Positions 11,938-26,716 of a DNA stretch of 37,022 bases are shown piece after piece. Below the pieces are notes generated by a model, which saw nothing but the letters and a program-made list of their open reading frames with translations, was not told the origin of the DNA and searched no databases. The DNA comes from a virus, in IMG/VR virus record IMGVR_UViG_3300033388_004555, positions 1 to 37,022 of that record. One strand, written 5' to 3'. The translations under genes and the position numbers were made by a program. Position 1 is the first letter of the stretch. The number at the start of each line of letters is the position of its first letter.

Positions 11938-12261
11938 ATGTCTTTTAGAGTGACCGTTAATGAAATTCATCGCAAAACTTTGTGTGAAGCTTCATATCCG
12001 TTAATCAAGCAGTTTGAGCAGGAATATCCTGGCGGTGTCTGTTTGTGTGAGCTTATCGAGAGAGCTGATAAGGATATGCTGGATCAGTTGAATTTCTTAT
12101 CGCGCTATTTTGGTAGTTGTGTTGATCCTGAGCATGATTTCTCGGAGATGAGTATTGAAGGTAAGGTTATTCTTTGCACTTGGAATCCTCAGTGCGTTAA
12201 TCAGATTGGATATGATGCGCTGCCTCCTGAAGAGAAAGACTTGATTGATGCTGTCGTATAA
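11938..12261 (+). CDS. Small paralogue 2 behind the tail spikes, unknown
   Basis: A 107-aa protein 11 bp after its paralogue. The shared core is EYPGGVCLCELIERADKDM (residues 29-47), followed by LNFLSRYFG where the neighbour has IDWICKNFG. It differs by holding more cysteines (C16, C35, C37, C60 and others). Ribosome site is AGAGGTTAAGAA. Its last 65 bp overlap, tail to tail, with the minus-strand gene at 12197-12457, so there is no room for a conventional intergenic terminator between the two operons. Tandem duplication followed by divergence is what the sequence shows; the function is unknown. Confidence 0.6.
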   Translation: MSFRVTVNEIHRKTLCEASYPLIKQFEQEYPGGVCLCELIERADKDMLDQLNFLSRYFGSCVDPEHDFSEMSIEGKVILCTWNPQCVNQIGYDALPPEEKDLIDAVV

Positions 12262-12457
12262 GCTCGCTTTGGATTGCTGAGAAGATATCCAGAAACTCAC
12301 AAAATTCAATCTTATGAAAGATATCGATTCCATTGTAATACATGGAGTCGATGCTTAGTTTCTGGTGGGTAGTATCATAGAAACCAGCAACATCAACATC
12401 AATGCTGCTGGTTTCCACTGATATCAGTGATTTTGGTGTTTTAACTGTGAACTTCAC
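12197..12457 (-). CDS. Small unknown protein at the end of the leftward operon
   Basis: An 86-aa protein read from a GTG that overlaps the last 17 bp of the exonuclease gene, so its translation is probably coupled to it. A GGATGA ribosome-site-like sequence lies just upstream. The sequence looks like a real globular protein, with alternating beta strands (KFTVKTPKSLISVE, SIDVDVAGFYD), then GIDIFHKI and a helix with FSAIQSELI. This overall pattern (beta strands, a GxYD, a GxDI, a helix) recurs in small phage proteins without assigned function. The final 65 bp lie opposite the end of the rightward gene at 11938-12261. A coding call rests on protein-like composition and overlap coupling. Confidence 0.55.
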   Translation of the reverse strand: MKFTVKTPKSLISVETSSIDVDVAGFYDTTHQKLSIDSMYYNGIDIFHKIEFCEFLDIFSAIQSELIRQHQSSLSLQEAAHHIQSD

Positions 12458-16550: not shown

Positions 16551-16741
16551 TGAAAGAGGTTGATTGCATTGAGGATGAATTGGAAGTCGGTGATATTTTT
16601 TGTATTAAAGGTTTTCGAGTGAACTTCAAAGGTGAGCATGATTTAAATTGTAAACCTGGAAGAGAGAGTGAGTTTATTGTTTATCTTGATATCGATGGAC
16701 TCAAAAAATTTAAACTAAAACCCAAAGGAAAACCAAAATGA
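16550..16741 (+). CDS. Small early protein after ssb, unknown
   Basis: A 63-aa protein starting in a TAATG overlap with ssb and ending in an ATGA overlap with the RyR-Acb2 gene. It has an acidic N-terminus ([18 protein letters not shown]) with a short beta hairpin and a strongly basic end (KKFKLKPKGKPK). No domain recognised. Tight coupling on both sides supports translation. Confidence 0.55.
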   Translation: MKEVDCIEDELEVGDIFCIKGFRVNFKGEHDLNCKPGRESEFIVYLDIDGLKKFKLKPKGKPK

Positions 16742-17367
16742 AAATAGAAGATATTGCTCGCGTGGCTCATGAGATGAATCGTGCCTATTGTCAGTCAATA
16801 GGTGATGATTCTCAGCCTGAATGGAATGATGCTCCAGAGTGGCAAAAAGAGTCTGCTATAAAAGGCGTTGAGTTTCACATGGATAATCCGAGAGCGTCTG
16901 CTGCTGCCTCTCATGAAAGCTGGTTGGCTGAAAAAGAAGCTGATGGCTGGAAGTATGGTGAGGTTAAAGATCCTGAAAAGAAAGAGCATCCATGCTTTGT
17001 GCCGTTTGATCAGTTGTCGGTTGAGCAGCAAGCAAAAGATTTTATTTTTCGTCAAACAGTACACTCCCTTTGCGGCTTTGATGTGAAGCTTAATCAGCAT
17101 AATAAAATCAAAGGCTATCGCCAACTAAGTGATGCTGAGATTGCTTTGGTTAATATGTATAAGGATCTGGAAAAGCAACTCATGACGCTACTACAGAGGG
17201 CAATGATGGAGGAGATTGAAAGGCATGCAAAAGTTCGTGATAGCGATCTCTATACGCCGGATTTCGAGGCTGAGCATCAGGAATCAATGCGCTGGATCAA
17301 TATTGCTCGCACCGATCTTCAGAAAGGCGTTATGGCAGCTATTCGCGCTGTCACTAAGCCAAAGTAA
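16738..17367 (+). CDS. RyR domain fused to Acb2/Tad1 hairpin domain
   Basis: A 209-aa two-domain protein. Residues 1-110 match the RyR domain found in phages: IEDIARVAHEMNRAYCQSIG, PEWNDAPEWQKESAIKGV, HESWLAEKEADGWKYGEVKD, EHPCFVPFDQLSVEQQAKD. Residues 123-208 match the Acb2/Tad1 helical hairpin: IKGYRQLSDAEIALVN (124-139), a long helix, then RWINIARTDLQKGVMAAIRA (185-204). Acb2 proteins form compact hexamers that soak up cyclic di- and trinucleotides and so block CBASS; Tad1 sequesters gcADPR and blocks Thoeris. The insertion near residues 155-180 is larger than in stand-alone Acb2. A sponge function is inferred from family; the RyR half may bind another nucleotide signal. It is an early gene after ssb and is followed by a weak terminator. 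Confidence 0.8.
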   Translation: MKIEDIARVAHEMNRAYCQSIGDDSQPEWNDAPEWQKESAIKGVEFHMDNPRASAAASHESWLAEKEADGWKYGEVKDPEKKEHPCFVPFDQLSVEQQAKDFIFRQTVHSLCGFDVKLNQHNKIKGYRQLSDAEIALVNMYKDLEKQLMTLLQRAMMEEIERHAKVRDSDLYTPDFEAEHQESMRWINIARTDLQKGVMAAIRAVTKPK

Positions 17368-20987: not shown

Positions 20988-21353
20988 ATGCTTGAGTCAT
21001 TACCAGAAATTATTTACTATGTATTTTTCATTGTTTTGCTACTGATCGGCAAAATGCTTTGGTTATTCACTGGAGGGCTTAACATGGGTCTGAAATTATT
21101 ACTGGCAAATATTATTACTTCGACTATCAAATCGAAGCTTGAGAATCCTAAAAAAACAGGAAAGAAATCAACTGCGGCGGCTGTTGTTGTTGGTGCGCCT
21201 GTTGCTTTGGGTATGGCTGCTGCTGCAACAACTGAGGCCGGCATGACTGGCGATCCGGTTTATGATTGGCTGATGGTGGGTGCTGGCATGGTTGTTACTT
21301 ATGGTTTATCTCAGTTTCGTGATTGGTCTAAAGAAAAATATAAGCTGGATTAA
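20988..21353 (+). CDS. Holin candidate with two possible starts
   Basis: A 121-aa membrane protein from the ATG at 20988. Residues 8-30 (IIYYVFFIVLLLIGKMLWLF) are a membrane segment; an Ala/Gly/Val-rich segment (residues 65-80, AVVVGAPVALGMAAAA) and a third (WLMVGAGMVVTYGL) follow, with charged ends. A second in-frame ATG at 21084 has a much better ribosome site (GGAGGGCTTAAC) and would give an 89-aa form lacking the first segment. Dual starts are used by holin/antiholin pairs such as lambda S, although there the two products differ by only two residues. The gene leads a lysis cassette with DUF5675 two genes later. The long form has only GGGG as a weak ribosome site. Confidence 0.6.
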   Translation: MLESLPEIIYYVFFIVLLLIGKMLWLFTGGLNMGLKLLLANIITSTIKSKLENPKKTGKKSTAAAVVVGAPVALGMAAAATTEAGMTGDPVYDWLMVGAGMVVTYGLSQFRDWSKEKYKLD

Positions 21354-21355
21354 TT

Positions 21356-21529
21356 ATGTCAGGTGTTGAAATTCCGAGTTGTAAGCTTTGTGGTGGTCAG
21401 GGTAAAACTGATGCCTCATGTGGTGAGGTGGCGGTTAAGTGCGTCAAGTGCGGTGCTGGTACAGGACACAAGGTTAATATTGGTGTTGCTGTGAAAGAGT
21501 GGCGCATTTTGATGGGTGATGAAAAATGA
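21356..21529 (+). CDS. Lar-like zinc-ribbon protein (57 aa)
   Basis: A 57-aa protein missed by ordinary size cut-offs. It has CKLCGGQGK and CVKCGAGTG, two Cys pairs separated by about 20 residues, then VAVKEWR. This is the layout of the Lar restriction-alleviation family (C-P-F-C-G, then C-x-x-C-G-A, then A-I-x-x-W-N-x-R). Lar of Rac relieves type I restriction by acting on modification; the same small ribbon is common in phages and is often untested. Start has weak ribosome site; it is coupled by ATGA to the DUF5675 gene. Confidence 0.6.
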   Translation: MSGVEIPSCKLCGGQGKTDASCGEVAVKCVKCGAGTGHKVNIGVAVKEWRILMGDEK

Positions 21530-21978
21530 TCATTGAGCTTAATAGAGCGTTTTCTGGCAATGATTCAACCATTGGTGTGCTTTCAGTCAATGGTGAGCCG
21601 TTTTGCTTCACTGTTGAGGATGAGGGTCGTGAGAGTAAGGTTACTGGCGAGACTCGCATTCCAGCGGGTTCTTACCCAATAACTCTCAGGAATGAGGGTG
21701 GAATGACAAAACGCTATGCTGAGAAGTTTCCTGATATGCACCAAGGCATGATCTGGTTGCGTGATGTGCCAGGCTTCACTTGGGTTTATATCCATATCGG
21801 TAACACTGATGATCACTCTGAGGGTTGTATCCTAGTGAATTACAATGCTTATCTTGAGGGTGAGCGTGGTGGTCGAGGTGGAAACTCAACAAAGTGCTAT
21901 GCTGATTTATATGCGATGATTGTTAAAGAAATGAATATGGGTAATCCCGTACAAATCATCGTGAAAGATCATCTGTAG
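21526..21978 (+). CDS. DUF5675 protein, probable peptidoglycan-active lysis enzyme
   Basis: A 150-aa protein with the full DUF5675 layout: IGVLSVNGEPFCFTVEDEGR, GETRIPAGSYPITLR, HQGMIWLRDVPGFTWVYIHI, then GNTDDHSEGCILV. The HIGN...SEGC segment (H90, C101) is very like the catalytic H...S-x-G-C of L,D-transpeptidases (YkuD fold), so it may cut or rearrange cell-wall peptides. It has no signal peptide, so it would need the holin to reach the wall. Position right behind a holin candidate supports a lysis role; no classical lysozyme, amidase or peptidase is seen elsewhere in the window. Confidence 0.7.
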   Translation: MIIELNRAFSGNDSTIGVLSVNGEPFCFTVEDEGRESKVTGETRIPAGSYPITLRNEGGMTKRYAEKFPDMHQGMIWLRDVPGFTWVYIHIGNTDDHSEGCILVNYNAYLEGERGGRGGNSTKCYADLYAMIVKEMNMGNPVQIIVKDHL

Positions 21979-22035
21979 TGAAATTTTTACTGTATATATC
22001 AATGATCGTTGTTGCTACTGAGGTATGATAAGGGC

Positions 22036-22602
22036 ATGGATATGGAAGCTTTAAAAACAAGATTACTTCAAGTGCTGGTTGTTGGTGTAATGACCACGTT
22101 TGGCTTTGGTGTCAATGAAGGCTATCAACATTATGAAGCTTCTGAGTATGGTGTTGAAAAAGGCAAAGTTTCGTATGCTCAAGAGCAGTTATCCTTTTAT
22201 AAGCGCAATGAAATGTGCATGGTTGATCTTCAGCCAATCCAAGTCCAATCATCGCCAGAGCTATCGATATCAATTTTGGCTTGTCCGTCAGGGGATGTGC
22301 GAATCATCGCGCTTAATTCTCAAACCAATCAAAGATTTTCTAAGTGGCTGGCAACAAATCAAGTCGCTATGGTTACGGATCAGATATCATTTTCATTGCT
22401 TAACAAAGCCTATGCTGATGATGTAGGCGGCAATATTTTTGGTGAAATACAGACTCAAACGAAAATCTGTAAGGCTTTCACTAAAGGAAATTATTTTATT
22501 GAGGTCACTCGAAGCCCTGAGGGTGTTTGTAGAGAGATCACCTATAATGGTAGTGGTAGGGTTGTTTTAGAGAGAAACATACCTTGCTACGCTTGTGATT
22601 AG
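22036..22602 (+). CDS. Membrane-anchored lysis-region protein, unknown
   Basis: A 188-aa protein. The ATG at 22036 (or the second at 22042) follows AAGG; an in-frame TTG at 22009 is less likely. Residues about 8-26 (RLLQVLVVGVMTTFGFGVN) are a single membrane anchor, leaving a 160-residue periplasmic domain with cysteines (MCMVDLQ, ILACPSG, KICKAF, GVCREI, IPCYACD) that could pair as disulfides. Such anchor-plus-domain proteins occur in the spanin place of lysis cassettes, but the domain is not a coiled coil as in Rz. Family unknown. Confidence 0.5.
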   Translation: MDMEALKTRLLQVLVVGVMTTFGFGVNEGYQHYEASEYGVEKGKVSYAQEQLSFYKRNEMCMVDLQPIQVQSSPELSISILACPSGDVRIIALNSQTNQRFSKWLATNQVAMVTDQISFSLLNKAYADDVGGNIFGEIQTQTKICKAFTKGNYFIEVTRSPEGVCREITYNGSGRVVLERNIPCYACD

Positions 22603-22612
22603 GAGTAAAGAA

Positions 22613-22954
22613 GTGTCAGATCACGATATTCAGCAATTTGTGTTGGAGCATAGTAACGCAACCACGATTGCTGGAGTGAGTGGAGCTGCCACCGTTGCAA
22701 CAGTGCCTTTCTTTGAGGAAGCATTGATGTTCGGTGTAACTGGAGTCGAGATTCTTTGGTGTCTCGGTGCTGTTGTTGTCATATTGGCGATAGCGGTAAA
22801 AATCCTTGAGGTTGTTTATCTTAGGAAGCAGATAAAAAGCCTGGAGGAAAACCAAAACCCCACAAACCCGAAAGAGAGTAAATCCGATGTTTCAACCAAA
22901 CCACGCGCCATTCCCGAAAGAGCTGGCAGGGGAAATGCTGATACTTGCGATTAA
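22613..22954 (+). CDS. Two-span membrane protein, holin/spanin-region candidate
   Basis: A 113-aa protein from a GTG at 22613, which follows GGAG by 8 bp; the frame extends further up to a GTG at 22595 inside the previous gene. N-terminal 25 residues are soluble, then segments TIAGVSGAATVATVPFF and VEILWCLGAVVVILAIAV span the membrane, followed by a charged coil (LRKQIKSLEENQNPTNPKES). This is the topology of a small holin. The last 68 bp overlap the start of the next gene in another frame, where the protein is a low-complexity tail. Confidence 0.5.
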   Translation: MSDHDIQQFVLEHSNATTIAGVSGAATVATVPFFEEALMFGVTGVEILWCLGAVVVILAIAVKILEVVYLRKQIKSLEENQNPTNPKESKSDVSTKPRAIPERAGRGNADTCD

Positions 22955-23210
22955 ACGCACCGGCAGATTCGATAGAGCAGCAGTATTACATCATTCAACA
23001 ACTTATCTGGAATCCATTGGGTATCCTCATTTGATGGATCTCGCTATGGAGGGTCGTATTTTCCAGGCTCATAAAGAAAATAATCAAACTCACGTTTTCT
23101 ATCCAGCACCAAAATCCTCACATAAGATCGCGTATGCCATCAATAACGAGGGTCGGTTGCCAACATGGTTACTGGATAAGCATTTAGAAAAAGCGCAAGC
23201 AGCAGCATAA
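22887..23210 (+). CDS. Small soluble protein, unknown
   Basis: A 107-aa protein starting 11 bases after GAGAG, nested in the 3' end of the previous gene. It has a helical first half (IKRTGRFDRAAVLHHSTTYL) and a C-terminal NNEGRLPTWLLDKHLEKAQ. The GRLPTWL segment weakly recalls the DNA-binding loop of H-NS-type proteins (G-R-x-P-x-W-L), which phages do carry, but the rest does not fit and I do not claim it. Followed by the next gene after 10 bp. Confidence 0.5.
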   Translation: MFQPNHAPFPKELAGEMLILAIKRTGRFDRAAVLHHSTTYLESIGYPHLMDLAMEGRIFQAHKENNQTHVFYPAPKSSHKIAYAINNEGRLPTWLLDKHLEKAQAAA

Positions 23211-23220
23211 GAGGGTTCTC

Positions 23221-23493
23221 ATGAGTGATATCGTGGGGCTTGGCGATGCCAATAATGTGCCTTTTACGCTCCGAAAAATGGCAAAAGATATTGAGAGTGG
23301 AAAAATAGTTCTAGGTGATGCTGGTTTAACGATTGTAGCGCCTCCAAATGTTTTCCAGTTGGGTTATGTTGCATCGCCTAATGAGGCTGTGATGAAGTCG
23401 ATAATGAATCTTAGTCTAGGGATTACCAAGCTCAATAATTCAGTTTTATCTTCTTATCAAAATTATGGTGGTGATGATGATCAATCGCCATGA
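23221..23493 (+). CDS. Small accessory protein, unknown (90 aa)
   Basis: A 90-aa protein with ribosome site AGAGGG. It starts MSDIVGLGDANNVPFTLRK and contains DAGLTIVAPPNVFQLGY, then a helix AVMKSIMNLSLGITKL. There is no recognisable motif. Its end overlaps the next gene in another frame. Standard accessory gene of the late-early region. Confidence 0.5.
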   Translation: MSDIVGLGDANNVPFTLRKMAKDIESGKIVLGDAGLTIVAPPNVFQLGYVASPNEAVMKSIMNLSLGITKLNNSVLSSYQNYGGDDDQSP

Positions 23494-23743
23494 AAGCAGG
23501 GTGATATTCGGTTTGAATGAAGCAGCTCGGTCTGGATATCGGGTTAATGAGGCAAAGTTTATGAGTTATAGGAGGCTCGCATTTAAATCACGTTTGCCGA
23601 AAAAGAGAGAGAAATCCAGAAGATCGGTGAAGATCGGATCATACTATGTCGGCTGTGATTCTGTTGTTTTTCAGAATGGTGAGCTATACGCGCATCCATT
23701 GGTGGTGCTAAAGATTAAGCGAATGATGGAGAAAAAGAAGTGA
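23474..23743 (+). CDS. Small basic protein with GYRVNxA motif, unknown
   Basis: An 89-aa, very basic protein. Several ATG/GTG codons lie at 23465-23479; 23474 is a compromise after GGTGGTG and the true start may be 3 codons away. The block AARSGYRVNEAKFMSYRRLA resembles LLSAGYRVNKARHAG in the gene at 25754-26014, so the two may be diverged relatives. The C-terminal half is Lys/Arg-rich and may bind nucleic acid. The stop is inside the start of the next gene. Confidence 0.5.
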   Translation: MMINRHESRVIFGLNEAARSGYRVNEAKFMSYRRLAFKSRLPKKREKSRRSVKIGSYYVGCDSVVFQNGELYAHPLVVLKIKRMMEKKK

Positions 23744-24351
23744 GTCAGGTTAGTGAAAAGGCAAGATTGGTTGTAATGCTTACGGTTGCCAAAGTTGATC
23801 TAGCTATTGCAACAGCTCCAAAGGATCTATATCAGAGAGTGAATCCTGAAGATGCTAGTAATCTCATGGAGTTAAGGGATGAAGTTGATCAGTTACTTGA
23901 GATTATCAAGAGTGATAATCCGTATGATATTGATTCTATTGATAATAGATTTTTAAGGAATGGTGCTTTGCCTGGTGTTGATGATCTTTGTGAGCTTCCA
24001 AAAGATGTTGAAAATCAAGAGATTGATGATGAAATCGAGATTGAGGATGAAGAAATATCAATGGATTTCACTGTTCCTTTTGAGTGTTGTGATGAAAGGG
24101 TTGGCAGAAAGGGTTTGGCTTTAAGGTATGTCGGATGGAATAAAGACACGATTAAAGAATTATTTGAGGGTTTTGTACATCCAGATCCAAACTCACTTGG
24201 ATTGATTATTGGTACTGAGAAAACAGGCTCATCGCCGCTAAATGTCGGGGATTTTATATTTGTTGAAAAGGTGTTGAGTGCTAAACCAATAGTGGTTGAG
24301 CCGGATCTGTTTCAAAGGCATTTTGATTACTATAAGGGTGAAAAGGAATGA
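23740..24351 (+). CDS. Acidic accessory protein, unknown (203 aa)
   Basis: A 203-aa acidic protein translated from a GTG that overlaps the previous stop. N-terminal helices (KARLVVMLTVAKVDLAIATA), an acidic linker (EIDDEIEIEDEEISMDF), and a C-terminal domain with RKGLALRYVGWNKDTIKE and EKTGSSPLNVGDFIFVEK, possibly a small beta barrel. No enzyme motif. Coupled to the next gene by ATGA. Confidence 0.5.
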   Translation: MSQVSEKARLVVMLTVAKVDLAIATAPKDLYQRVNPEDASNLMELRDEVDQLLEIIKSDNPYDIDSIDNRFLRNGALPGVDDLCELPKDVENQEIDDEIEIEDEEISMDFTVPFECCDERVGRKGLALRYVGWNKDTIKELFEGFVHPDPNSLGLIIGTEKTGSSPLNVGDFIFVEKVLSAKPIVVEPDLFQRHFDYYKGEKE

Positions 24352-24716
24352 GTGTTATTCGTAGACCTGAAGATTATTTGATTGAAGAGGCTGATGGTGA
24401 AGTTCAGGAATATATCGATCAGCTTGAAGAGTGTATCGCTGTATTTGTCAGAGAAGAGGCTGATTTTGATGCTGAGACTGATAGCGATGCGATATCAAAG
24501 TTCTATGAAAAATACTGCCAGTCTGCTTATGAGAGTTTGCTGGTTAAAGTTCCTGATAGGTCTGTAATAAAAAACAGGAAAACCGGCGAGAAAATTGTTG
24601 TTTATGGTGAGAGTGAGATTCATACATCAGAATTCGAGGTGGTGGCAGATAGGCCTCATGGTGATGGTGATTACAGTTATTTATGCAATAGCCAGTATTG
24701 TAGATGCAAGCAATAA
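24348..24716 (+). CDS. Accessory protein with Cys-rich end, unknown (122 aa)
   Basis: A 122-aa acidic protein, ATGA-coupled to its neighbour. Helical first half (DYLIEEADGEVQEYIDQLEE), then a beta-containing second half (KIVVYGESEIHTSEFEVVA) that ends YLCNSQYCRCKQ with three cysteines. No family recognised. It ends 8 bp before an AAGGTGATTT ribosome site. Confidence 0.5.
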   Translation: MSVIRRPEDYLIEEADGEVQEYIDQLEECIAVFVREEADFDAETDSDAISKFYEKYCQSAYESLLVKVPDRSVIKNRKTGEKIVVYGESEIHTSEFEVVADRPHGDGDYSYLCNSQYCRCKQ

Positions 24717-24724
24717 GGTGATTT

Positions 24725-25069
24725 ATGGATATTAATTTAGCTTATGGTCAAGGTGAAGATGCTGCGAGAGCTGGTAGAGGTCTTGATTCATGCACTCTGG
24801 AGGGTGATTTTAGAAGAGCCTGGATGCAGGGTTTTAATGATTTCAGGGGTTCAGTGATAACTGATCGTGATGAGCGATTGAAGCGAGCAACTGAAAAGAT
24901 ATCCGAAAAGAATCAGCGTAATCGTGAATTGAAGTTGGAGGCGTTATCAAAGCTTGAGGAAGCTGTTGAGGCTGTTGATAAATACGCCAAAGATTGCGAA
25001 TACGATGATCATAGAGCTGCGGCTATGGCTGCAAAAGAAAGATTAATCAATGCTTTGAGGGCTTTGTGA
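24725..25069 (+). CDS. Rmf/CrpP-like domain protein
   Basis: A 114-aa protein whose first 40 residues (AYGQGEDAARAGRGLDSCTL followed by DFRRAWMQGFNDF) match the small Rmf/CrpP fold: G-x-x-A-A-x-x-G, a C-P/T-like turn and W-x-x-G-F/W. Rmf binds ribosomes and pairs them into inactive 100S dimers; CrpP was linked to fluoroquinolone change but that is disputed; many phages carry this domain with unknown role. The rest is a long charged helix (LKLEALSKLEEAVEAVDKYA). A host-translation or DNA-linked role is inferred only from fold. Strong ribosome site AAGGTGATTT. Confidence 0.6.
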   Translation: MDINLAYGQGEDAARAGRGLDSCTLEGDFRRAWMQGFNDFRGSVITDRDERLKRATEKISEKNQRNRELKLEALSKLEEAVEAVDKYAKDCEYDDHRAAAMAAKERLINALRAL

Positions 25070-25323
25070 TGAGAAAGAATTGTGCTGGTTGTAAAAATCT
25101 AGGTATGGCTAAGCATTTTAATGGTTTGGCGATTCCGTTTTGTAAAGCTGCTGGTGAGGCGGTTGTGCCTCATTCTGCAACCGATATCGGAGAGCTTAAA
25201 TGTGAGGTTGTGTTTTGGCGTGTGCCTGAGTTTTGCGTATTGCCTGATGATGAGGTTGATAAGACTGAGGATAGACAGCCAGAAAAACACTGGACTACTG
25301 AAAAGCACTCAATGGTGAAATGA
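25069..25323 (+). CDS. Small zinc-ribbon-like protein
   Basis: An 84-aa protein with a start in a TGATG overlap and GAGGG before it. Cysteines at NCAGCKNLG, PFCKAAG, LKCEVVF and EFC give five ligands in a ribbon-like spacing. The C-terminus is acidic then Lys/His-rich. Zinc binding is probable; target unknown. Followed by an ATGATG start of the dsRBD gene. Confidence 0.5.
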   Translation: MRKNCAGCKNLGMAKHFNGLAIPFCKAAGEAVVPHSATDIGELKCEVVFWRVPEFCVLPDDEVDKTEDRQPEKHWTTEKHSMVK

Positions 25324-25754
25324 TGAAACATAAAGATTATCTGCTTATGGCAGCAACAGTAATTTCAGTGCATGAGGATATTGATATCGTTGATGCCTTA
25401 GAGGGTGCGCGTTGCATGGCTGATCGATTGGAGGATGAAGGCCTATTGGATAAACCAAAACAAAAGGAATCATCTGGTGAGATAACTTCAGATATGGCAA
25501 GTAATCCGATTGGTTTTATTCAAGAGGTTTGCCAGAAAGCAGGTATTGAAGCTCCGCACTATACGGTATCACCAATCGTTGATGGTCAGCTATCCAAATT
25601 CCAATGTAATGCAAAAATGGTTTGGGTTGATGGTGAAACTATTAAATCGAAAGGCATTCCGTCATTGAATAAGCGTAGAGCAAAGTTTGAAGCTGCTAGA
25701 GGTTTGATCGAGAAGTTGTTTGATCATGATAACGACTATCGAGATTTCTGTTGA
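25320..25754 (+). CDS. Double-stranded RNA-binding domain protein
   Basis: A 144-aa protein. Residues 62-134 fit a double-stranded RNA-binding motif: helix 1 NPIGFIQEVCQKAGIEAPHY (62-81) with P-x-Y, a loop DGQLSKF (88-94) in place of the GPxHxxxF, strands FQCNAKMVWVDGETIKSKG, and helix 2 NKRRAKFEAARGLIEKL (117-133) with the K-x-x-A-K-x-x-A-A pattern that contacts the RNA major groove. The N-terminal 60 residues form a small helical region and an acidic linker (DIVDALEGARCMADRLEDEG). No nuclease domain is attached. In cells this fold appears in RNase III; a free dsRBD in a phage could hide phage dsRNA or compete with a host RNase or sensor. Function inferred. Confidence 0.7.
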   Translation: MMKHKDYLLMAATVISVHEDIDIVDALEGARCMADRLEDEGLLDKPKQKESSGEITSDMASNPIGFIQEVCQKAGIEAPHYTVSPIVDGQLSKFQCNAKMVWVDGETIKSKGIPSLNKRRAKFEAARGLIEKLFDHDNDYRDFC

Positions 25755-26014
25755 TGGCAAGGTTTTATCCTCGCAAGGGTTCTGATGATAGGTCCTGGGT
25801 GTTCAAAGCCGAGCCTAGACAAAAATTCAGAGAAGATTACGAGGGTTTATTATCTGCTGGTTATCGAGTGAATAAGGCTCGTCATGCAGGAATATCAAGA
25901 GTTTATATCATTGCCTATGATCATTTTTGGGATAGGTACGGTGATTATATTTGGGCTAAGCGGGGTGTAGGTATGTTTATTCCAAGCAGAATCAAAAAAT
26001 ACAGGAAAAGGTGA
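25754..26014 (+). CDS. Small basic protein with GYRVNxA motif, unknown
   Basis: An 86-aa basic protein starting in a TGATG overlap with the dsRBD gene. The core LLSAGYRVNKARHAGISR followed by IIAYDHFWDRYGDYIW parallels the block in the gene at 23474-23743. It ends in a Lys/Arg tail (SRIKKYRKR). No known domain. The short overlap suggests coexpression with the dsRBD protein. Confidence 0.5.
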   Translation: MARFYPRKGSDDRSWVFKAEPRQKFREDYEGLLSAGYRVNKARHAGISRVYIIAYDHFWDRYGDYIWAKRGVGMFIPSRIKKYRKR

Positions 26015-26019
26015 TTGAT

Positions 26020-26064
26020 ATGAGTAGTAGTTTGATGTGGAAGTCAGTAACTCCAGAGTATTGA
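26020..26064 (+). other. Possible 14-aa leader peptide frame
   Basis: ATG at 26020 follows AAGGTGATTGAT and gives MSSSLMWKSVTPEY before a stop. Only a ribosome site supports it. The interval 26065-26115 holds no gene but a copy of an operator-like sequence (next entry). Confidence 0.2.
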
Positions 26065-26087
26065 TTAAGGTTTTGTCACCAATACGA

Positions 26088-26099
26088 GATAATTATTTA
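26088..26099. promoter_or_regulatory. Operator-like sequence GATAATTATTTA before the small membrane protein
   Basis: Shares GATAATTATTT exactly with 14517-14527 and, on the minus strand, TAAATAATT with the sites at 14744 and 17444. Promoter boxes nearby are poor (TTGATT at 26061, TTGTCA at 26073), so activity is uncertain. Confidence 0.35.
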
Positions 26100-26115
26100 A
26101 AACGAGGATAGAGAT

Positions 26116-26334
26116 ATGGAGCAGATAGCGATTGTTTTTACTGGAGCTGTAGCAATATGGCTAACGCAACAAGCCAATGAATCATGGAAGAAATACGCTT
26201 GTTTGTTTGGTTTAGCTGGTCAGCCATTTTGGTTTTATGCTTCATATCAGGCTGAGCAATGGGGTGTGTTTGCGATGTGCTTTGTTTATACCTGGAGTTG
26301 GTTGCTTGGATTTAAAAACAACTGGCTGATTTGA
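26116..26334 (+). CDS. Small phage membrane protein, unknown
   Basis: A 72-aa membrane protein of a type common just before phage terminase genes. Segments IAIVFTGAVAIWLTQ, YACLFGLAGQPFWFYASYQA and WGVFAMCFVYTWSWLLGF are likely spans; the motif FGLAGQPFWFYA...QWG is the conserved core of this family. Family function is unknown. Ribosome site is CGAGGATAGAG. It is followed 1 bp later by another membrane-anchored gene. Confidence 0.65.
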   Translation: MEQIAIVFTGAVAIWLTQQANESWKKYACLFGLAGQPFWFYASYQAEQWGVFAMCFVYTWSWLLGFKNNWLI

Positions 26335-26335
26335 T

Positions 26336-26716
26336 ATGGATGTTTTAGTTGTTGTTTTAATGCTGGTATTGATATTGATTTTGATGTTTGTGGTGGCGTT
26401 GCTTATTGCTCGAAGCATGAAGATAATTAGTGGTATATCTGATGATGAGTACAGAAGAGAGCAGTTAGAGGAAGTGTTTGATCCAGTTGGGCGTTGTATT
26501 TATTGTCTGGAATTTCATCGTGTTTCTCATGTATGCTTTGCAAAACAGCAAGATATAAGGATTACCAAGAAAGAGAATAATCATTGGAAGTATGTTGCTG
26601 AGGATGATGTTGATGTAAATATAATATCGATTGCCATTAACTTTGATGGCTCGATAAGTACCGTGGTTATTCCAGCAGGGAGATTTCATGCCTCGTCAGA
26701 AGTCAAAGGCGACTAG
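26336..26716 (+). CDS. Membrane-anchored protein with Cys/His cluster
   Basis: A 126-aa protein. Residues 2-27 (VLVVVLMLVLILILMFVVAL) are one membrane span. Then comes RCIYCLEFHRVSHVC, a C-x2-C-x3-H-x3-H-x-C cluster likely to bind zinc, and a C-terminal beta region (IISIAINFDGSISTVVIPAG). The last 29 bp overlap the small terminase gene. Role unknown. Confidence 0.5.
   Translation: MDVLVVVLMLVLILILMFVVALLIARSMKIISGISDDEYRREQLEEVFDPVGRCIYCLEFHRVSHVCFAKQQDIRITKKENNHWKYVAEDDVDVNIISIAINFDGSISTVVIPAGRFHASSEVKGD

Follow-up and report, generated by a model that had tools for sequence, protein, structure and literature searches.

A P22-like phage encodes a nuclease-free protein with a C-terminal dsRNA-binding domain and a possible role in masking duplex RNA

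A small gene within a tight gene series

We analysed a window of 37,022 nucleotides that makes up the whole of one virus record. On its plus strand, ORF P0001 (25320..25754) runs from an ATG at 25320 to a stop at 25754 and encodes a 144-residue protein with a stand-alone dsRNA-binding domain (dsRBD). The ATG overlaps the stop codon of the preceding gene and the following gene starts with a matching overlap; P0001 is translationally coupled to the genes on both sides. Its G+C content by codon position (0.52/0.35/0.32) is coding-like and resembles that of its neighbours. Because of these start and stop overlaps, together with the neighbour-like codon-position G+C, P0001 is a real gene within a tight series of small genes.

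The flanking plus-strand genes are an 85-residue ORF with cysteines directly upstream (25066..25323) and an 86-residue basic ORF directly downstream (25754..26014), and neither matches a family. The downstream protein and another basic small protein (23465-23743, plus strand) have the motif GYRVN(E/K)A(K/R) in common; paralogy of the two would rest on a match of only 9 residues. Two genes upstream of P0001, a plus-strand gene (24725..25069) encodes a protein with a putative RMF/CrpP-like N terminus, indicated by weak profile matches under the curated cut-offs (PF04957, E 0.0015; NF041886, E 2.2e-4). The PADLOC matches of the same protein to Csm2 are weak and partial and were taken as chance.

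The protein is divided between two regions of differing charge: its pI is 5.2 (acidic) over the whole sequence versus 9.1 (basic) over the dsRBD. The acidic N-terminal region (residues 1-57; 25320..25490, plus strand) is mostly helical by prediction (residues 4-19 and 23-39, at low confidence), and the first 60 residues have a pI of 4.5. Those 60 residues found no relatives when compared with the phage collection and with domain families.

The C-terminal domain is a dsRBD by several sequence comparisons

The C-terminal domain of P0001 (residues 61-135; 25500..25724, plus strand) has the sequence SNPIGFIQEVCQKAGIEAPHYTVSPIVDGQLSKFQCNAKMVWVDGETIKSKGIPSLNKRRAKFEAARGLIEKLFD and is a dsRBD. It was characterized with PF00035, an RNase III dsRBD HMM scored beside shuffled sequences, plasmid relatives, a PDB profile, and a structural model with fold search. 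The PF00035 (dsrm) profile matches residues 63-133 across the full domain (model positions 1-66 of 66; E 1.1e-4), and the score of 23.1 bits passes the curated cut-off of 23 bits by a thin margin. A six-frame search of the 37,022-base record with the same profile returned 24.6 bits at P0001 and no second dsRBD. The dsRBD motifs that the first-pass annotation had placed within residues 62-134, P-x-Y and the basic helix-2 pattern among them, are all found there.

We then compared P0001 with a custom HMM made from 36 dsRBDs of bacterial loci, chiefly of RNase III. P0001 scored 14.6 bits, whereas the highest-scoring of 5000 shuffles reached 8.6 bits, and P0001 was the top match across all frames of the window (E 5.5e-4, with the runner-up at E 0.49). 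As a query, P0001 recovered dsRBDs from each collection: RNase III dsRBDs were 6 of its 10 weak matches in 369 Gammaproteobacteria, the Loquacious dsRBD was its best match among PDB sequences (E 8e-4), and dsRBD proteins were its best matches in the plasmid collection (E down to 1e-3). A joint profile of P0001 with the dsRBDs of Acaryochloris plasmids, which is dominated by the Acaryochloris rows, matched R2D2, Loquacious, TRBP and Staufen in the PDB (E 4e-14 to 5e-7).

The Pfam scan of P0001, carried to E 10, lists dsrm as its sole family, so that the protein has no recognisable enzymatic domain, whether a nuclease, a helicase or another. An RNase III catalytic domain, with its NERLEFLGD signature, is absent beside the dsRBD in this 144-residue ORF. 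The proposal of a nuclease-free dsRBD in a tailed phage therefore stands, with a PF00035 match and a Pfam scan that holds no other family. The HicA toxin, which has a dsRBD-like fold, was rejected as an identity; the same scan holds no HicA profile match. P0001 is also unmatched by the PADLOC defence models.

Predicted structure and fold neighbours

An AlphaFold prediction of the whole protein as a single sequence was too poor to judge its fold (pLDDT 41). For residues 60-138 the prediction gave the elements H4-15 E21-27 E34-41 E48-51 H55-76 at a mean pLDDT of 68.8, from an alignment with one RNase III dsRBD (from viral contig L142) as a row, so that the model is not fully independent. The predicted topology of the domain is thus alpha-beta-beta-beta-alpha, the arrangement on which the earlier dsRBD proposal had been staked. 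This fold evidence is partly circular owing to the alignment row, and the dsRBD assignment stands on the sequence evidence without the model.

When the 60-138 model was searched against the PDB with Foldseek, the leading matches were either dsRBD proteins or proteins of the mitoribosome that have a similar domain. The best was R2D2 (TM 0.71, rmsd 1.7), at an E-value of only 4.9e-3. In VIA-align, R2D2, DRB4, Loquacious, Xlrbpa and RNase III aligned with the model across 65-74 residues, with Z scores of 10.6-9.7. The nearest viral folds were dsRNA-binding proteins of eukaryotic viruses, including the poxvirus and coronavirus ORF4a types, with weak Foldseek E-values.

Two of three RNA-contact regions are retained

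Double-stranded RNA-binding domains contact RNA through three regions: helix 1, the GPxH loop and the start of helix 2. P0001 keeps the glutamate of helix 1, and Q68-E69 is invariant in alignments with known dsRBDs. In the third region, K118-R-R-A-K122 matches the KKxAK signature at the start of helix 2. This helix (residues 117-134; 25668..25721, plus strand) carries the basic RNA-binding signature N-K-R-R-A-K-x-x-A-A in the alignments, where K118, A121, K122, A125 and A126 align with the KKxAKxxAA of known dsRBDs. The second region is absent: between strands 1 and 2, P0001 has VDGQLSKF, with no proline or histidine, in place of a GPxH loop.

A GPxH-type loop, which enters the minor groove, is usual but not universal among dsRBDs. 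Its loss is a caution for RNA binding by P0001 and does not exclude dsRBD membership, because the Acaryochloris dsRBD proteins also do without GPxH. A single dsRBD often binds weakly, and some dsRBDs bind protein only. Judged by its domain and signature, P0001 is predicted to bind dsRNA.

P0001 is an accessory gene in a variable cargo stretch

The virus has a lambdoid/P22-like layout, with leftward Erf and exonuclease genes, rightward replication genes and NinG, and then the late genes. Its coat protein is 39% identical to those of the P22 group, the portal, scaffold and coat families are matched, and both TerS and TerL were found. Because none of the genes from 20988 to 26716 has relatives in 86 related loci, P0001 is an accessory gene within variable cargo, with the NinG region on one side and the terminase genes on the other. 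Among 50 TerL-related virus records, many of them fragments, none has a P0001 relative and none has a dsRBD over the cut-off; partial dsrm matches in two related phages (L083 and L084) cover 23-24 positions, lie under the cut-off and were rejected.

The phage collection (searched by tblastn to E 1), the viral contigs and the genome contigs yielded no close relatives of the full-length protein. Pattern scans of the viral contigs with the dsRBD alignments and with a Porphyromonas phage protein also returned nothing, at a low sensitivity that requires near-exact short peptides. An RNase III scan of the viral contigs gave a single locus (L142:1580-2272), a full RNase III of 230 residues whose flanking ORFs carry GDVSGLRGDVSG repeats. 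Other candidates were discarded: the Pseudomonas phage Ep020 match has no dsRBD in it, and records labelled as phage that contain RNase III, Acinetobacter phage MD-2021a among them, showed a bacterial chromosome context in the one annotated case inspected. Within the open-access papers and terms searched, we found no RNA-binding, dsRBD-only protein of a tailed phage.

Among Enterobacterales, the order of Psychromonas, 147 of 149 genomes have exactly one dsRBD match, in RNase III-sized frames of 220-284 residues, in agreement with the first-pass annotation's statement that bacterial dsRBDs mostly occur with RNase III. No stand-alone dsRBD was found in the 149 genomes. Apart from P0001, RNase III is thus the one dsRBD protein found in the likely hosts.

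A possible counter-defence setting, and a convergent ORF pair at 12.2 kb

The same phage encodes a predicted cyclic-nucleotide sponge, a RyR-Acb2 fusion (16738..17367, plus strand; PF24729, 52.2 bits; PF02026, 46.2 bits). Against the PDB, this protein matches the ryanodine receptor (E 3.5e-18) and Acb2 p26 (E 3.4e-12), consistent with a RyR domain followed by a C-terminal Acb2/Tad1 hairpin domain in a predicted anti-CBASS sponge. The added RyR domain may itself bind a nucleotide ligand; the term 'RyR domain' did not occur in the Acb2/Tad1 literature within the open-access papers searched. Because this fusion lies in the same genome, a counter-defence setting for P0001 is plausible, and because the two genes are 8 kb apart, the fusion is no proof of such a role.

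A plus-strand ORF (11938-12261) and a minus-strand ORF (12197-12457) converge at 12.2 kb and overlap by 65 bp. The codon pattern of the minus-strand ORF is coding-like, and the ORF weakly matches one domain of unknown function. Just past the plus-strand ORF lies a hairpin with a 12-pair stem (12322-12353); the interval 12262-12361 (plus strand), after the stop of that ORF, has a stable hairpin (z -3.05) that could be a terminator or an RNase III site. Judging from gene content, one of the operons meeting here is probably late and the other probably early, with different expression times. Convergent overlap is common in phages. These genes are a possible source of dsRNA for P0001, as had been proposed earlier, but the link is a weak one: nothing ties the site to P0001, and the overlap says little about it because such arrangements are common and the operons probably differ in timing.

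Proposed function and alternative mechanisms

We tentatively propose, with somewhat less than even confidence, that P0001 masks duplex RNA, chiefly from host RNase III and perhaps also from a defence that duplexes trigger. Under this mechanism, P0001 would bind A-form RNA duplexes with at most a weak sequence preference, using predicted contacts from Glu69 in helix 1 and from Lys118, Arg119 and Lys122 at the basic start of helix 2. Without catalysis, the protein would act by occupancy, and phage antisense duplexes or hairpins would be masked while it is bound. Host RNase III is the obvious competitor because it is the sole other dsRBD protein found in the likely hosts. When the tombusvirus dsRNA-binding protein p19 is present in E. 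coli as a foreign protein, it captures duplex RNA that RNase III has produced, and it stabilises intermediates in the RNase III decay of antisense duplexes (PMC7373196). Therefore, a dsRNA binder can act in bacteria, which makes masking our first choice.

Several other mechanisms would employ the same domain. Since dsRBDs can read hairpins, P0001 could recognise one or a few structured phage RNAs, such as a late leader, an antiterminated transcript or an RNase III site, and control their processing or translation. RNase III sites are known regulators in the lambdoid group (the lambda N leader and int/sib), and the lambdoid/P22-like layout, in which P0001 follows the NinG region and precedes the terminase genes, fits this role. 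We consider it unlikely, as an Rfam search found no known RNA family in the window and P0001 is absent from the TerL-related records. A very small probability attaches to a role at the ribosome, in which P0001 would target rRNA together with its RMF/CrpP-like neighbour and bias translation during infection. The RMF/CrpP-like protein is encoded two genes upstream (24725..25069) and dsRBDs can bind rRNA helices, but the RMF match is under the curated cut-offs, no functional tie joins the two genes, and small Rmf/CrpP-type proteins are frequent in mobile elements.

Among solved structures, Dicer partners come closest to P0001 in sequence and fold, and P0001 might likewise serve host RNase III as an adaptor, in the way that Loquacious, R2D2 and TRBP serve Dicer, and redirect cleavage rather than block it. 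The contacts of those partners with Dicer rely on a different domain context and we know of no such adaptor for a bacterial RNase III, leaving this the slimmest of the chances considered here. It is also highly improbable that P0001 is a dsRBD fold re-used as an Acb4-like sponge for CBASS cyclic dinucleotides. The sponge reading draws on the dsRBD-like fold of Acb4 from phage SPO1 (PMC11722364), on the RyR-Acb2 fusion in the same genome and on an Apyc1-like gene that adjoins the dsRBD gene of Porphyromonas phage005; unlike Acb4, P0001 is recognised by PF00035 at the sequence level and retains the helix-2 signature for RNA binding.

We accordingly rank masking of duplex RNA, tentative as it is, ahead of a specific phage RNA, an Acb4-like sponge, a ribosomal target and an RNase III adaptor. 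One form of masking is distinctly improbable in its own right: P0001 could be a counterpart of the dsRNA-masking proteins of poxviruses and coronaviruses and keep duplex RNA that arises during infection from an undescribed bacterial defence that senses dsRNA or is triggered by RNase III products. A host dsRNA sensor is a possible opponent, and to our knowledge no bacterial dsRNA sensor has been described. If P0001 binds dsRNA, it would offer a handle on duplex RNA in phage infection, whether as an RNase III target, a regulator or a danger signal.

Comparison with known systems

The dsRBD of bacterial RNase III (PF00035) has the same domain and fold and can be aligned with that of P0001 along its full length; P0001 differs in having no catalytic domain, in a helix 2 with KRRAK instead of RRKAEQ, and in missing the GEAH of loop 2. 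A nuclease-dsRBD pairing outside RNase III occurs on plasmids of Variovorax, Pseudomonas silesiensis and Acaryochloris, where RNB-family ribonucleases carry 1-3 C-terminal dsRBDs (L136:917-3067, L137:908-2983 and L141:872-2740, with L136 and L141 confirmed by Pfam).

Among eukaryotic viruses, proteins that contain only dsRBDs are a classic means of counter-defence. The poxvirus OPG065/E3 type, betacoronavirus ORF4a and a crocodilepox protein are, like P0001, small viral proteins that have a dsRBD without an enzyme, and they are among its structural neighbours. They differ in targeting eukaryotic sensors, such as PKR, and the likeness is structural, with weak Foldseek E-values. Acb4 of Bacillus phage SPO1 is likewise a small phage protein, with a dsRBD-like fold by structure comparison (PMC11722364), but it binds cyclic dinucleotides and its dsRBD likeness is structural, in contrast to the sequence-level profile match of P0001.

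Five stand-alone dsRBD proteins of Acaryochloris plasmids (WP_315876989.1, WP_261892017.1, WP_315876730.1 and relatives) also resemble P0001. They are nuclease-free (77-157 residues), have a single C-terminal dsRBD without GPxH, and share with P0001 an NPIGxLQExCQ helix 1, P-x-Y and a KKxAK-type helix 2, with 31-40% identity across the dsRBD and a best E-value of 1e-3. In contrast to P0001, they lie on cyanobacterial plasmids and have other N-terminal regions and shorter beta loops. Three of the five genes (on L133, L135 and L140) adjoin reverse transcriptase or group II intron genes.

A second phage case is XAW31776.1 of Porphyromonas phage005_ATCC49417, a 155-residue protein annotated as hypothetical that matches PF00035 at 31.7 bits. 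Its gene lies directly after one annotated as an Apyc1-like anti-Pycsar nuclease, so that RecT, the Apyc1-like nuclease and the unannotated dsRBD protein stand in a row (L129:1915-3228). Unlike P0001, XAW31776.1 comes from an unrelated phage of another host phylum and keeps the histidine in loop 2, and no similarity was seen between the two beyond the domain. Both are nevertheless phage-encoded, dsRBD-only proteins with the domain at the C terminus, which suggests that a protein of the P0001 type is not a one-off.
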